The position numbers were made by a program, and so were the translations under genes. The notes under the pieces were generated by a model. That model ran no database searches. It worked only from the letters and a program-made list of their open reading frames with translations, and was not told the origin of the DNA. From Haloglomus litoreum (GTDB lineage Archaea > Halobacteriota > Halobacteria > Halobacteriales > Haloarculaceae), in contig NZ_CP119988.1 of assembly GCF_029338515.1 (NCBI RefSeq), positions 4,588,001 through 4,652,000 on the forward strand: a stretch of DNA of 64,000 nt, written 5' to 3'. Below are positions 6,826-63,872 of this stretch, in pieces (the stretch's first letter is position 1; each line of letters opens with the position of its first letter).

Positions 6826-7290
6826 ATGTCACGTACGGATGGCGAGCCGACGGACGGCGGTGACGGGCTCACCGAGCCCGAGCGCGCGGCACTGCACGAC
6901 CTCGAACTCGGGCTGGAGCACGTCCGCCGCGGGTACGGCGCGCTGGTGACGTTCCACCACCAGATCGGGCGAGGGATGGACCGCTTCGACGACGCGCGGG
7001 CACGGCTCCGCGAGGCCGGCCACGACGACCTCGCCGACCGCCTCCGGGACGAGGTGCTCCCGGCAGGTGCCGTCGGCGACCGGTGGTCGTACGAACTGGT
7101 CGCCGACTTCCGGCGGGAGTTCCTCGCCGACGTGACCGCGATGGAGGCCGACGCCCGCGAGGCGCTCGCCGAGGGCGGACATCACCTCACGGAGCGGCGC
7201 CAGCAGGCACGCTGGCGCGACCGGGCCGAGGGCGAGGCGTGGCGGGTCGACGGGGAGAAGGGGGCGGAGCGCCGGGGGACGGAGGACTGA
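6826..7290 (+). CDS. helical hypothetical protein
   Basis: 154 residues from ATG 6826. Mostly charged helices (ERAALHDLELGLEHVRRGYGALVTFHHQIGRGMDRF) with no cysteine, signal or TM segment. The pattern suggests a four-helix or coiled-coil bundle. An earlier in-frame start exists, but sequence before 6826 is proline/arginine-rich non-coding type. No family recognised; function unknown. Confidence 0.65.
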   Translation: MSRTDGEPTDGGDGLTEPERAALHDLELGLEHVRRGYGALVTFHHQIGRGMDRFDDARARLREAGHDDLADRLRDEVLPAGAVGDRWSYELVADFRREFLADVTAMEADAREALAEGGHHLTERRQQARWRDRAEGEAWRVDGEKGAERRGTED

Positions 7291-8944: not shown

Positions 8945-9805
8945 ATGACCGACAGCGAGACCATCACCGTCCAGGGCGTCGAGGTGCCCCGCCTCGGCCT
9001 CGGTACGTGGCGGCTCACCGGCGACACCTGCCGCGAGACCGTCGAGACGGCACTCGATCTGGGCTATCGCCACATCGACACCGCGCAGGTGTACCGGAAC
9101 GAGCGCCAGGTCGGCGACGCGCTCGCCGCCAGCGACGTGCCCCGCGAGGAGGTCTTCCTCGCGACGAAGCTCGGGCCACAGCGCTCGTACGACGACGTCC
9201 TCCGGACGACCGAGGAGAGCCTCGCGCGCCTCGGCACGGACTACCTCGACCTCCTGCTCATCCACTGGCCCAACGGCCGGCCGCCGGGGTCGCCGCCGAA
9301 CCCGCTCTCGTCGGCGCCCGACCACGCGGAGACCCTCGACGCCATGAACGAGCTCGTCGACGCCGGGAAGGTCCGGAACGTCGGCGTCTCGAACGTCGAC
9401 GTCGACGCGCTGCACGAGGCGCGCGAGCTGAGCGACGCGCCGGTCCTCACGGACCAGGTCCAGTACCATCCCTTCTGGAACCAGCAGGACCTGCTCTCGT
9501 ACTGTCGGGTCCACGACGTCCTGCTGACGGCCTACTCGCCGCTGGGCCACGGCGGCGTGCTGGATGACCCGGTCCTGGAGCGCATCGGCCGTCGCTACAC
9601 GAAGAGCCCCGCACAGGTCGCGCTCCGGTGGCTCGTCCAGCAGGACCAGGTGGCGACCATCCCGAAGGCGACGAGCCGCGAGCACCTCGAGGCGAACATG
9701 GCGATCTTCGACTTCGAACTGACCGACGACGAGATGGCCGAGATCCGCCGCCCCTCGAAGTACGAGACGCTGCGGGGATTCCTGAAGGCGCGGGTGCTGG
9801 GGTAG
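8945..9805 (+). CDS. aldo/keto reductase
   Basis: 286 residues of the NADPH-dependent AKR family. The catalytic tetrad is visible as D45 and Y50 (YRHIDTAQVYRNE), K75 (ATKLG) and H107 (LLLIHWP). The conserved VRNVGVSN and the C-terminal NADP-binding IPKATSREHLEAN are present. Cytosolic reduction of aldehydes or ketones; substrate not predictable, though 2,5-diketo-gluconate reductase-like enzymes are nearest in pattern. Start ATG 8945 (MTDSETITVQG). Its stop abuts the SprT-like gene on the other strand. Confidence 0.93.
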   Translation: MTDSETITVQGVEVPRLGLGTWRLTGDTCRETVETALDLGYRHIDTAQVYRNERQVGDALAASDVPREEVFLATKLGPQRSYDDVLRTTEESLARLGTDYLDLLLIHWPNGRPPGSPPNPLSSAPDHAETLDAMNELVDAGKVRNVGVSNVDVDALHEARELSDAPVLTDQVQYHPFWNQQDLLSYCRVHDVLLTAYSPLGHGGVLDDPVLERIGRRYTKSPAQVALRWLVQQDQVATIPKATSREHLEANMAIFDFELTDDEMAEIRRPSKYETLRGFLKARVLG

Positions 9806-36976: not shown

Positions 36977-37030
36977 GCCGCGGTCGCCGAGTTCGCCGCG
37001 GTCGCCGAGTTCGCCGCGGTCGCCGCGTTC
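36977..37030. repeat. three 18-bp tandem repeats just after the second hydrolase
   Basis: GCCGCGGTCGCCGAGTTC repeats at 36977, 36995 and 37013 (last copy one change). It starts 12 nt after the hydrolase stop and stays in the hydrolase's frame (AAVAEF units, next stop near 37046). The rest of the 378-bp gap to 37343 holds no gene I can support. Confidence 0.85.
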
Positions 37031-60807: not shown

Positions 60808-61084
60808 GCGGCGGCTCACAGAGCGGTCGTTCGCTTCGATCGCTACTCGGTACTCCGATGGGTGTTCGGAGTCGGCATCGGATGCAGACGGTGGGGGCGA
60901 CGGGCGAGCGCACTGCGTCGCTTCTGACAGGTAACGTCGATCTTCGAGGAGTGATGCTGGATACAGCGCGCGAATACAGCAGGTCCGACATCGAGGTGTG
61001 AGTCAGCGTAGAGAGGTGATTTGTATAAATACCATCGACATCACTGTTTCAGGTATTAGTAACCGCCTGTCGTACGACACGCCA
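60808..61084. other. intergenic region before the HTH cluster
   Basis: 277 bp with no supportable gene. GC falls steeply after about 60990. Contains the 16-bp element at 61031-61046 and TATA-like sequences (TGTATAAAT at 61022-61030, TATTAGTAA near 61054-61062). Confidence 0.5.
61031..61046 (+). promoter_or_regulatory. 16-bp element shared with the HalOD1 promoter
   Basis: ACCATCGACATCACTG, identical on the opposite strand to 63138-63153. Lies upstream of the TATA-like TATTAGTAA, which is centred about 29 nt before the ATG of the leader ORF at 61085. The inner CATC-GA-CATC is a direct repeat. Candidate activator or repressor site for an HTH_10 protein. Confidence 0.6.
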
Positions 61085-61156
61085 ATGGACTGTTTGTGGG
61101 TACGGACAATGGACTGTGTTGCTGGACCAGCCCGACGAGGTCAGTTGGTGGCATGA
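61085..61156 (+). CDS. 23-residue leader ORF coupled to the HTH gene
   Basis: ATG 61085, in frame to TGA at 61154-61156, so the stop overlaps the HTH ATG (61153) as ATGA. The peptide starts MDCLWVRTMDCVAG and ends RRGQLVA; MDC occurs twice. The TATA-like site centred about 29 nt upstream suggests leaderless translation of this ORF, followed by reinitiation at the HTH gene. Confidence 0.4.
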   Translation: MDCLWVRTMDCVAGPARRGQLVA

Positions 61157-61827
61157 GCGTTGTTGCTCAATTCACCATTCCCGCAACCCAGTTCGTCCTC
61201 GGTGAGCTACTCGAAGTCGGGAGCGGGCCCGAAATACGACTCGAATCAGTAATCCCGACTGGGGACTCGGTCGTGCCCTACTTCTGGGTGGGCAACGAAC
61301 ACGCCGATGCCGTCCAGGCGGCACTCGAAGAATCCGAGTTCGTCGACGAGGTTACGATCGTAGATGGCTCACAGTCAGAGACCCTGTTTCGCGTCGTGTG
61401 GGCCAACGATGTCGATGGATTATTCGGCCTTATCCGTGACACTGACGCCGCCCTGTTAGAGGCCGAGGGACTGGGTGACGACTGGGTCTTCCGGATGCGG
61501 TTCTCCGAGCGTGAGTCACTCTCCGAGTTCTATCAGGCCTGCATCGAGAAGGGGTTCACACCAGACTTAGAAGAAGTGAACAGCCCGTTCAGCTCTGCCG
61601 ATATCAGCAGTTTCGGCGTCACCGAGCCCCAAAAAGAGGTACTTCTCGCCGCCCTGGAGAATGGTTACTTCGACGTTCCCCGGGAGATCAACCTTACCGA
61701 CCTGGCCGACGATCTGGACATCTCGGATACGGCAGCGTCACAGCGCATCAGGCGCGGAATGAAGACGCTGCTGTCTGGCACGCTCGCGGCCCGTGAGAAG
61801 CGAGAGACGGACAGTGACGACGAGTAG
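61153..61827 (+). CDS. HTH_10 bacterio-opsin activator-type regulator A
   Basis: 224 residues from ATG 61153 (MSVVAQFTIPATQFVLGELLE). N-terminal sensor-like domain with IRLESVIPTGDSVVPYFWVGNEH, a second beta part (DWVFRMRFSERESLSEFYQACIEKGF) and a C-terminal HTH_10 at about 160-210 (QKEVLLAALENGYFDVPREINLTDLADDLDISDTAASQRIRRG). DNA-binding regulator. Very similar to the gene at 63164-63856 (shared PYFW, YFDVPR.INLTDLA). Codon use is less GC-biased than the rest of the window, consistent with transfer. Confidence 0.9.
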   Translation: MSVVAQFTIPATQFVLGELLEVGSGPEIRLESVIPTGDSVVPYFWVGNEHADAVQAALEESEFVDEVTIVDGSQSETLFRVVWANDVDGLFGLIRDTDAALLEAEGLGDDWVFRMRFSERESLSEFYQACIEKGFTPDLEEVNSPFSSADISSFGVTEPQKEVLLAALENGYFDVPREINLTDLADDLDISDTAASQRIRRGMKTLLSGTLAAREKRETDSDDE

Positions 61828-61975
61828 CTAATCGGTCCGCCAGTCACAGCCGTTGTGGAGTCTCGGTGTCCAGTGACAACCCCGTCGAGTGACAGGAATG
61901 GACGACGCTACTGGCACGCTCGATACGGAGTTTATTATAATAGACTTCTCTATCACTGCATAGGCCGCATGCACG

Positions 61976-62092
61976 ATGCGTGAAAATAGTCTGGTGAGGT
62001 CGAACAGTGGTTGTGGTCGCATGAGTAACCACAGTGCTCGCAGGGCGAGCGCTGTCGAACCCAACTCCATGAGAGGCCAGGCGAGGAGATGA
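61976..62092 (+). CDS. 38-residue leader ORF coupled to the second HTH gene
   Basis: ATG 61976 to TGA 62090-62092. The stop overlaps the HTH gene's ATG (62089) as ATGA. The peptide is Arg/Ser-rich (MRENSLVRSNSGCGRMSN..., ending GQARR). TATA-like TTATTATAATAG at 61931-61942 puts the transcript start just upstream of this ORF. Same layout as the ORF at 61085. May only be a spacer, but the repeated arrangement is notable. Confidence 0.4.
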   Translation: MRENSLVRSNSGCGRMSNHSARRASAVEPNSMRGQARR

Positions 62093-62814
62093 GTCTCTTC
62101 GTCGACGTGGGCCTCTCTGTAACTGCAATCCCACCTGGTGGCATCGTCCCAATCCAGACTGACGTGACACTCGAACTCGAACGGGTCGTGCCGACGGCAA
62201 GCACAACACACTTTCTCTGGCTCGTCGGCGAGAACCACCACCAGTTCCTCGAGGACCTGCGAGGCGAGTCTGCTGTCGAGTCGATCACCGTACTCGACGA
62301 GTTCGACGACCGGGTGTTCGTTCGCCTCCACTGGAACGTACTGGAGAATCCGTTTCTCGACCTGCTCGACGAGAGTGACGTGGTCCTTGTGGAAGCACGG
62401 GGAACGGCGGATGGGTGGGAGGCCACACTCCGGTTTCCCGACGAAGCGACACTCAGAACCTTCTACGAGGCCAGTGAACAGGGTGAACACGGAGTCGAAC
62501 TCCGTGCGATCAACGGTGCACGAGTCGACGAGCGTGGGGGCACGGACGTGCTCTCCCCCGTACAACGGGAGACGCTCGAGGCAGCCTTCGAGGCCGGGTA
62601 CTACGACGTGCCACGGGCGATTACGATCGCCGAACTCGCAGCGCAACTCGACCGCTCAGAGCAGGCGGTCTCAGAGGCGCTCCGGCGAGCGACGGCGAAT
62701 TATTTGCGGGCGACGCTGCAACAGGGAGAGCCGAGTGAGACCGACCCCGACGACGAGGGCGAGGCGAGCGGCACCACAGCTCGCACGGATGCCGAAACTG
62801 ACGGTGACTGCTGA
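62089..62814 (+). CDS. HTH_10-type regulator B (divergent sensor domain)
   Basis: 241 residues. N-terminal sensor-like domain (TLELERVVPTASTTHFLWLVG, VFVRLHWNVLENPFLDLLDE) and an HTH_10 at about 160-215 (QRETLEAAFEAGYYDVPRAITIAELAAQLDRSEQAVSEALRRATANYL), then a charged tail. More diverged than A and C. A purine-rich GAGGAG lies just before the ATG. Its 3' end lies 3 nt from the convergent HalOD1 gene. Target unknown. Confidence 0.87.
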   Translation: MSLFVDVGLSVTAIPPGGIVPIQTDVTLELERVVPTASTTHFLWLVGENHHQFLEDLRGESAVESITVLDEFDDRVFVRLHWNVLENPFLDLLDESDVVLVEARGTADGWEATLRFPDEATLRTFYEASEQGEHGVELRAINGARVDERGGTDVLSPVQRETLEAAFEAGYYDVPRAITIAELAAQLDRSEQAVSEALRRATANYLRATLQQGEPSETDPDDEGEASGTTARTDAETDGDC

Positions 62815-62817
62815 AAC

Positions 62818-63090
62818 TCACGTCTCGGTCGAGCCAGCGGATTCGACGGTCGGCTCTCGGACCTCGATATCGGTGGCCGACCGGACACTGACCTCGTACC
62901 CTGCATACGAGAAGAGGACCGTCGGGGCGGTTCGCTCCGCCGAATCAGCGCTGGCGTGTGCGTATAGTGCCTCTAGTGCGTCAGGTTCGATCGCTTCGTG
63001 AAGCGGCGGCAGAGCCTGTGAATCAGCTCCGCTGGCTCGTGCGACGGCCTCGACGACGCGAGCACTGATCGAACTCTCGGTCTGAGTCAT
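62818..63090 (-). CDS. HalOD1-domain protein
   Basis: 90 residues. Single HalOD1 output domain: ISARVVEAVARASGADSQALPPLHEAIEPDALEALYA, then a beta hairpin VLFSYAGYEVSV. HalOD1 is a haloarchaeal output module often attached to or found near response regulators. The promoter has the 16-bp element followed directly by TATTTATATA on the minus strand, centred about 37 nt before the ATG. Probably a signalling partner of the HTH proteins in this cluster. Confidence 0.85.
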   Translation of the reverse strand: MTQTESSISARVVEAVARASGADSQALPPLHEAIEPDALEALYAHASADSAERTAPTVLFSYAGYEVSVRSATDIEVREPTVESAGSTET

Positions 63091-63137
63091 GACTGTGAAC
63101 TCTTATCAAGGGGGCCGGCCCCAACGTATATAAATAG

Positions 63138-63163
63138 CAGTGATGTCGATGGTTTATCCATCG
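63138..63163 (-). promoter_or_regulatory. 16-bp shared element plus 17-bp palindrome upstream of HalOD1
   Basis: Minus-strand ACCATCGACATCACTG (63138-63153) sits 1 nt before a TATTTATATA box for HalOD1. It overlaps a palindrome CGATGG-TTTAT-CCATCG at 63147-63163, which ends at the stop of regulator C. Looks like an operator (and possibly transcript-end hairpin) for regulator C and HalOD1. Confidence 0.6.
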
Positions 63164-63856
63164 TTATGAATCTTCAACAGTTGGTTCCGTGTCGTCAGTC
63201 GTCTCCGCCTGGCCCTGGGCGAGCGTCGTTCTGAGGAGTGCTGCGGTGCCTCGTGAGATCCGTTGTTTCGTCGCCGTGTCCGAGAGCCCCAGTTCAGCAG
63301 CGAGGTCCGTGAGGTTGATGTTCCGAGGCACGTCGTAATACCCCGCGTCGAGCGCGGTCACGAGTGCTTCTCGCTGTGCCTCGGTGATGTCGAACCCGAG
63401 GCCGAGCGTCTCGGGAATACCGGGGTTGTGGATGGACTGGACGTCGATCCGGATGTCGCGGTCGATACACTCCCGATAGAACGTCGAGAGGTCGTCGTGG
63501 TCGGGAAAGCGAAGCGAGAACGTCCAGGTGTTGGCTTCGCCGACCCCTTCGAGGATCGTCCCATCGGCCGTTGCCAGTGCATCGAGAACCCCATCGATGT
63601 CCTCGGCCCACTGGGCACGAACGAGCGTCTCACCGTCGATCGAATCGAGAATCTCGAAGGAATCAACGTCGTCGTCTGCTTCGAGCGCGGCTTCGATGGC
63701 GTCGATACTGTCGTCCGATGCCCAGAAGTACGGGATGAACGTCGACCCGACGGGGATGACCCGTTCGAGGCGAACGCGAATGCCCGGATTCTCGCTGAGT
63801 GCCGAGTCGAGGACGAACGCATTCGCCGGGAGTTCAACGGTTGCGAGGACACTCAT
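63164..63856 (-). CDS. HTH_10 bacterio-opsin activator-type regulator C
   Basis: 230 residues from ATG 63856 (MSVLATVELPANAFVLDSALSENPG), chosen by alignment to regulator A (MSVVAQFTIPATQFVL). Sensor-like domain with RVRLERVIPVGSTFIPYFWASDDS, and a C-terminal HTH_10 (QREALVTALDAGYYDVPRNINLTDLAAELGLSDTATKQRISRG). A frame from ATG 63928 reads through a G10 tract into this gene; with 9 G it would instead end in ATGA at the start, as in A and B. Upstream of HalOD1 on the same strand, with 73 nt between. Confidence 0.9.
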   Translation of the reverse strand: MSVLATVELPANAFVLDSALSENPGIRVRLERVIPVGSTFIPYFWASDDSIDAIEAALEADDDVDSFEILDSIDGETLVRAQWAEDIDGVLDALATADGTILEGVGEANTWTFSLRFPDHDDLSTFYRECIDRDIRIDVQSIHNPGIPETLGLGFDITEAQREALVTALDAGYYDVPRNINLTDLAAELGLSDTATKQRISRGTAALLRTTLAQGQAETTDDTEPTVEDS

Positions 63857-63862
63857 GCCTCT

Positions 63863-63872
63863 CCCCCCCCCC
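63863..63872. repeat. homopolymer C10 (G10 on the coding strand) upstream of regulator C
   Basis: Ten consecutive C on the plus strand, 7 nt before the ATG of regulator C. Slippage would change whether the upstream reading frame (from 63928) fuses to the regulator or ends in an overlapping stop. It could also be a sequencing length error. Confidence 0.75.

Follow-up and report, generated by a model that had tools for sequence, protein, structure and literature searches.

The closest described counterparts of the regulators considered here are the Bat/bop upstream activator of Halobacterium, NarO and DmsR, which belong to the same protein family and exert control via short promoter sites. According to the available text of one paper, NarO and DmsR possess BAT and HTH_10 domains without a PAS or GAF domain (PMC11218638). 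The accessible portion of another cites NarO as a nar activator and a nitrate-dependent dms repressor, and describes palindromes such as CGAACATGTTCG that are common to the denitrification promoters of Hfx. mediterranei (PMC10062603). A precedent for the effect of site position is provided by the sugar regulators TrmB and TrmBL1, for which, in the portions of the literature at hand, one site represses when located downstream of the promoter elements and activates when located upstream of them; these proteins belong to an unrelated family and control a wide regulon. HalOD1 proteins are represented by DdfA (HVO_2176), which is described in the available text as needed for the disk shape of Haloferax volcanii and as seldom forming a cluster with RdfA and Sph3 in other species. 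DUF7344 was not found in the accessible open-licence PMC literature. Similarly, a search of that literature, with TGGTGTACCA among the queries, found no report of a promoter site in HalOD1/BAT/DUF7344 cassettes.

Our analysis concerns a 16-bp element in a cluster of such genes in Haloglomus litoreum. Whereas Bat, NarO and DmsR regulate metabolic operons, the site described here lies in the cluster that encodes the regulators themselves, and also before HalOD1 and DUF7344 genes. The denitrification palindromes, which we take to be linked to NarO, also differ from the present element in that its sequence is non-palindromic. A locally shared operator of archaeal regulators is an already known kind of arrangement, and the proposal of such an operator at this locus is partly supported.

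The regulator cluster and its low-GC island

The window, i.e. the whole stretch of DNA that was analyzed, comprises 64,000 nt (C1:4588001-4652000) of H. litoreum assembly GCF_029338515.1 (NZ_CP119988.1), a genome of 4,695,480 bp on one contig (C1). The cluster consists, in order, of regulator A (plus strand, 61153..61827, 224 aa from this ATG), regulator B (plus strand, 62089..62814, 241 aa), a single-domain HalOD1 protein (minus strand, 62818..63090, 90 aa), regulator C (minus strand, 63164..63856, 230 aa) and a DUF7344 gene (plus strand) past the window end. Regulators A, B and C all exceed both curated Pfam cut-offs, for BAT (PF15915) and for the C-terminal HTH_10 (PF04967). The HalOD1 gene lies behind C on the same strand, and its product scores 77.8 bits against a cut-off of 26.3 (PF18545). 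The DUF7344 domain, likewise assigned by Pfam, is encoded divergently from C, and its predicted model bears a weak likeness to ArsR-type winged helices (Foldseek probability 0.96, E 0.09). Judging from this model, DUF7344 may be a fourth DNA-binding protein of the cluster, which makes the binder of the element uncertain. Foldseek on the model of C returned a single match with E<=0.001, to a Thermoplasma protein, and nothing informative on DNA binding. Genome-wide, there are 46 HTH_10, 27 DUF7344 and 10 HalOD1 stretches. The cluster HalOD1 is the only one of these ten to pass the NCBIfam DdfA model NF053557 (75.7 bits, cut-off 70). Since the remaining nine score 44.6-69.2 bits, the model barely separates HalOD1 paralogs; the DdfA label was rejected and we claim no role in cell shape.

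Regulators A and C share 43% identity and are sisters in the tree (support 96/94), outside the clades formed by the two cassette regulators BL and BR described below, and B forms a long separate branch. The GC content of the cluster is 56-63%, compared with about 70% in flanking stretches, which suggests acquisition from elsewhere. The low-GC island extends from about 60900 to position 9000 of locus L009 (in which position 7001 is 1 bp past the window end), with an acyl-CoA ligase gene on one side and a thiolase/acyl-CoA dehydrogenase pair on the other. A possible toxin-antitoxin-like pair (L009:8086-8801) is present in the island as well; its PIN and ribbon-helix-helix matches are weak and fall short of the cut-off. 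The start codon of regulator C is immediately preceded by ten consecutive G on the sense strand (63863-63872). With nine G, an upstream frame would end in ATGA at this start codon, and slippage or an assembly error is possible. Upstream of C there is also a perfect inverted repeat with 9-bp arms, AACGGTTGGACCGACCAACCGTT (L009:7001-7023, 1-23 bp past the window end), which could act as a terminator-like hairpin or else as an operator in its own right.

The 16-bp element and its promoters

The sequence-only reading of this DNA had reported the same 16-mer in two promoters 2.1 kb apart, and both exact matches (ACCATCGACATCACTG) were confirmed. Copy 1 (plus strand, 61031..61046, C1:4649031) follows the TATA box of regulator A and precedes its presumed start site, and copy 2 (minus strand, 63138..63153, C1:4651138) is upstream of HalOD1. 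The observation was partly confirmed and was enlarged by a third exact copy (plus strand, C1:4652190-4652205), 190-205 bp beyond the window end and before the DUF7344 gene; copies 2 and 3 have 19 nt in common (63137-63155 on the copy 2 side). Each copy is on the same strand as the gene it precedes.

A genome-wide search with up to two mismatches identified eight places, of which three are exact, one has one mismatch and four have two. The check for random copies in coding DNA found none that were exact: all three exact copies are in this one cluster, spanning 3.2 kb, with none elsewhere in the 4.7 Mb genome. The five imperfect places are all within long open reading frames. With up to three mismatches, there are four matches in the window where 0.27 are expected. 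Exact repeats of at least 16 nt at most 3.5 kb apart are frequent within the coding DNA of the window, and it is therefore the non-coding position of the element that matters. Only two such repeat families in the window have both copies outside the coding mask, namely the element and a tandem repeat at 36977. In the intergenic DNA of the cluster the repeat score is 19, and the largest score among 40 dinucleotide shuffles was 13.

The earlier reading also placed each copy just upstream of a TATA-like box. This holds for HalOD1, where copy 2 is followed after one base by the A/T box TATTTATATA (minus strand, 63127..63136), the presumed TATA box. It fails for regulator A, where the good TATA box TATAAATA (plus strand, 61024..61031) directly precedes the element, its last base being the first base of copy 1. 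Apart from TATAAATA, the region preceding regulator A has no all-A/T octamer, and a weaker A/T stretch, TATTAGTA, comes after the copy. At DUF7344, a run of nine A that is not a classical TATA box ends on the first base of copy 3. In the intergenic DNA preceding each of A, HalOD1 and DUF7344, no all-A/T octamer lies anywhere but directly at the element. All three copies adjoin such an octamer; the probability of this under random placement is about 0.002, and two of the three regions account for most of that figure. The side of the element varies, since it follows the A/T box at A and DUF7344 and precedes it at HalOD1.

A weaker remnant had been proposed after the TATA box of regulator B (presumably TTTATTATAATA, plus strand, 61931..61942). 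It did not survive scrutiny, as it is a 10/16 match, one of three such in that intergenic region, and thus background; it was not counted as a copy. The distance from the start of TATAAT to ATCACTG at regulator B is 16 nt, as in copy 1, which is suggestive only. A, B and DUF7344 each have a leader ORF that ends in ATGA; this was considered as a special feature and rejected, because similar ORFs occur before HalOD1 and before a BAT gene of the 2.96-Mb cassette. Those comparison ORFs begin upstream of their own TATA boxes, so that the leader ORFs look like chance. Between the HalOD1 TATA box and start codon there is also a 12-bp perfect palindrome, GGGGCCGGCCCC (63111-63122).

A palindromic site in related cassettes

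The same gene families are found together at two further places in this genome, C1:2.96 Mb and C1:4.21 Mb. The former is a divergent pair in which HalOD1-BAT (BL) faces BAT-DUF7344 (BR), and the intergenic region between BL and BR (C1:2960399-2960520) contains the palindrome CATGGTACACCATG. Two of the three genomic places of TGGTRYAYCATG are in this region. Based on a strict pattern, TGGTRYACCATG-N{3,10}-CTTTTGTA, 391 genomes of the class were searched. There were 31 matches in 30 haloarchaeal genomes (H. litoreum and 29 others), whereas the reversed control gave no match. The spacer between TGGTRYACCATG and CTTTTGTA is 7 nt in 31/31 matches, with the palindrome TGGTRYACCA before the TATA box. 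Thirty of the 31 loci were read (L073-L102). Just downstream of the palindrome, all 30 have a BAT gene, behind which DUF7344 follows in 29, the 30th being cut by a contig end. A second palindrome-like site toward the divergent BAT gene, at 87-97 bp, is present in 28 of the 30 and absent in L080 and L091; three loci have a further BAT gene upstream of BL, each with a third site there. In each of the 29 parsed rows, 55-59 nt separate the start of the palindrome from the BR start codon, and the palindrome and the TATA box rank among the best-conserved segments in an alignment of 28 intergenic regions.

The recognition helices, whose residues were read from the HTH pattern and represent predicted contacts, are nearly invariant. 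The BR helix ISDQAVTERLRR lies in a segment with a mean identity of 99.5%, compared with 83% for the rest (29 rows), and the BL helix ITQQSLSSRLRR is found in 29 of 30 loci, the remaining one not having been extracted. At locus L054, one of the two other cassettes of the H. litoreum genome, the local repeat is non-significant by itself (11 of 40 shuffles were as good), and its palindrome is convincing only because it is conserved across genomes. Taken together, a site shared between promoters of the BAT cassette is a conserved design, and we infer that the site serves as an operator. The TGGTRYACCA cassette is better conserved than the 16-mer and is the more solid by-product of this work. The third cassette of the genome, at C1:4.206-4.208 Mb (L061), is a co-directional BAT-DUF7344-HalOD1 arrangement without TGGTRYACCA. 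It carries TGTACATGAAA twice before DUF7344, which is non-significant (5 of 40 shuffles were as good).

The cluster resembles the TGGTRYACCA cassette in its gene families, in its HalOD1 and DUF7344 partners and in a repeated site near the A/T boxes of its own promoters. HalOD1 is behind one BAT gene (C), and DUF7344 is also in the cluster. The cassette site, however, is palindromic, has a fixed 7-nt spacing and is distributed across haloarchaeal families, whereas the cluster element is a different, non-palindromic sequence with a variable A/T-box side in one genome. The TGGT-NN-ACCA pattern is absent from the cluster promoters; its sole match in L009, at 878, is within a neighboring gene. The regulators differ as well: A and C lie outside the cassette clades and B is separate, and the recognition helices of A (ISDTAASQRIRR) and C (LSDTATKQRISR) are unlike those of BL and BR. 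Divergence of both regulator and putative operator is as expected if the 16-mer replaced the cassette operator.

The nearest related cluster, in genome G294, has a regulator 51% identical to C together with a divergent DUF7344 gene, a BAT gene and HalOD1. Neither this cluster nor the three tandem BAT genes of G156 contain a copy of the element or a comparable shared repeat, and the element is thus conserved within its own cluster only. Broader conservation was considered and rejected: matches with at most one mismatch occur in 98 of 391 genomes, but exact ones are restricted to G000 (three), G140 (one) and G273 (one). At the same tolerance across the 391 genomes, the closest pair of elements outside the cluster is 19 kb apart. 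Relatives of the C HTH region were sought at 26 loci (A and C themselves, 12 parsed and 12 not parsed), and the element was found within 250 nt upstream in none of the 12 parsed loci from other genomes. A related-locus search of genome contigs with regulator C gave no match. A viral origin was also rejected, as the 19-mer is absent from viral contigs; these contain one 20-nt match to an A/T-extended pattern.

A candidate operator and its alternatives

Based on these observations, we think it probable on balance that the 16-mer is a cluster-private operator bound by A and/or C at all three promoters. We predict that the 16-19 bp site would be recognized by a DNA-binding protein encoded in the cluster itself, with the sisters A and/or C (both BAT-HTH_10) as the likeliest candidates, and that HalOD1, DUF7344 and A, possibly followed by B, would thereby form one auto-regulated local circuit. 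In the available parts of two papers on other archaeal regulators, an upstream site activates and a downstream site represses (PMC4706686, PMC10817205). The site just after the A/T box of A and DUF7344 could then hinder recruitment of RNA polymerase, and the site just before the TATA box of HalOD1 could help it. If this position rule holds, the circuit would repress A and DUF7344 and activate HalOD1, so that a single regulator could drive HalOD1 in the opposite direction to A and DUF7344. The shared promoter site in homologous cassettes suggests that a private operator for local BAT regulators is a property of such cassettes. The earlier proposal of a shared operator and a small local regulon is accordingly still the best reading, with all exact copies local and an analogous shared palindrome in homologous cassettes. 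Its promoter geometry at A and its remnant at B were not upheld, and its third member, DUF7344, lies outside the window. Several features count against this explanation, namely the variable side of the A/T box, the lack of the element in the G294 cluster and the A9 run in place of a classical TATA box at DUF7344.

The lack of symmetry also counts against binding by A or C, since the homologous sites are palindromic and a symmetric dimer would prefer a palindrome. This observation, together with the wealth of HTH_10 and DUF7344 stretches in the genome and the ArsR-like features of the DUF7344 model, would suit a shared operator bound by the DUF7344 protein or by a regulator whose gene lies elsewhere. 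We regard this as unlikely though worth serious attention, because the exact copies are all local and, in the homologous cassettes, the conserved site is found at the BAT promoters and goes together with BAT recognition helices that hardly vary. The sister relationship of A and C raises the prospect that the copies are functionless relics of duplication of an A/C gene or promoter fragment. At 43% identity between A and C, however, neutral flanks would have decayed, and the identity between copies ends sharply at 16-19 bp; with copy 3 pointing away from C and copy 2 behind the C gene, the layout is also unlike a duplication, and we consider such relics improbable. More improbable still is that the copies are recombination sites at which segments invert and promoters exchange, as in phase variation. 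Neighboring copies are indeed inverted and perfectly identical in a low-GC island, with 19-bp inverted repeats flanking regulator C and 16-bp inverted repeats flanking A-B-HalOD1. Nevertheless, for tyrosine recombinases, the recombinase class that was searched, the closest match lies at a distance of about 437 kb, and every copy is in sense orientation at an A/T promoter box, neither of which inversion sites need. Mere coincidence of codon-like words in GC-rich DNA could appeal to the exact repeats so frequent in the coding DNA of this genome, but it is scarcely credible for three copies that are all intergenic, all at A/T boxes and found nowhere else, with 0 of 40 shuffles reaching the observed score.

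If the 16-mer is an operator private to this cluster, it would be a concrete candidate DNA target for BAT-HTH_10 regulators. Haloarchaea have dozens of these regulators and many HalOD1 proteins, and few of either have known targets in the accessible open-licence PMC literature. The TGGTRYACCA cassette, present in 30 of 391 genomes, is a tractable and more general way into a HalOD1-linked circuit, and the joint divergence of regulator and putative operator offers a natural experiment. We further suggest, quite tentatively, that these cassettes are insulated switches with lineage-private operators read only by their own BAT regulators. In this cluster the operator would have been replaced outright, and its location on one or the other side of the A/T box would give HalOD1 a sign of control opposite to that of A and DUF7344. 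If this is true, one genome would run several orthogonal copies of the switch, at C1:2.96 Mb, in the island and possibly at C1:4.21 Mb.
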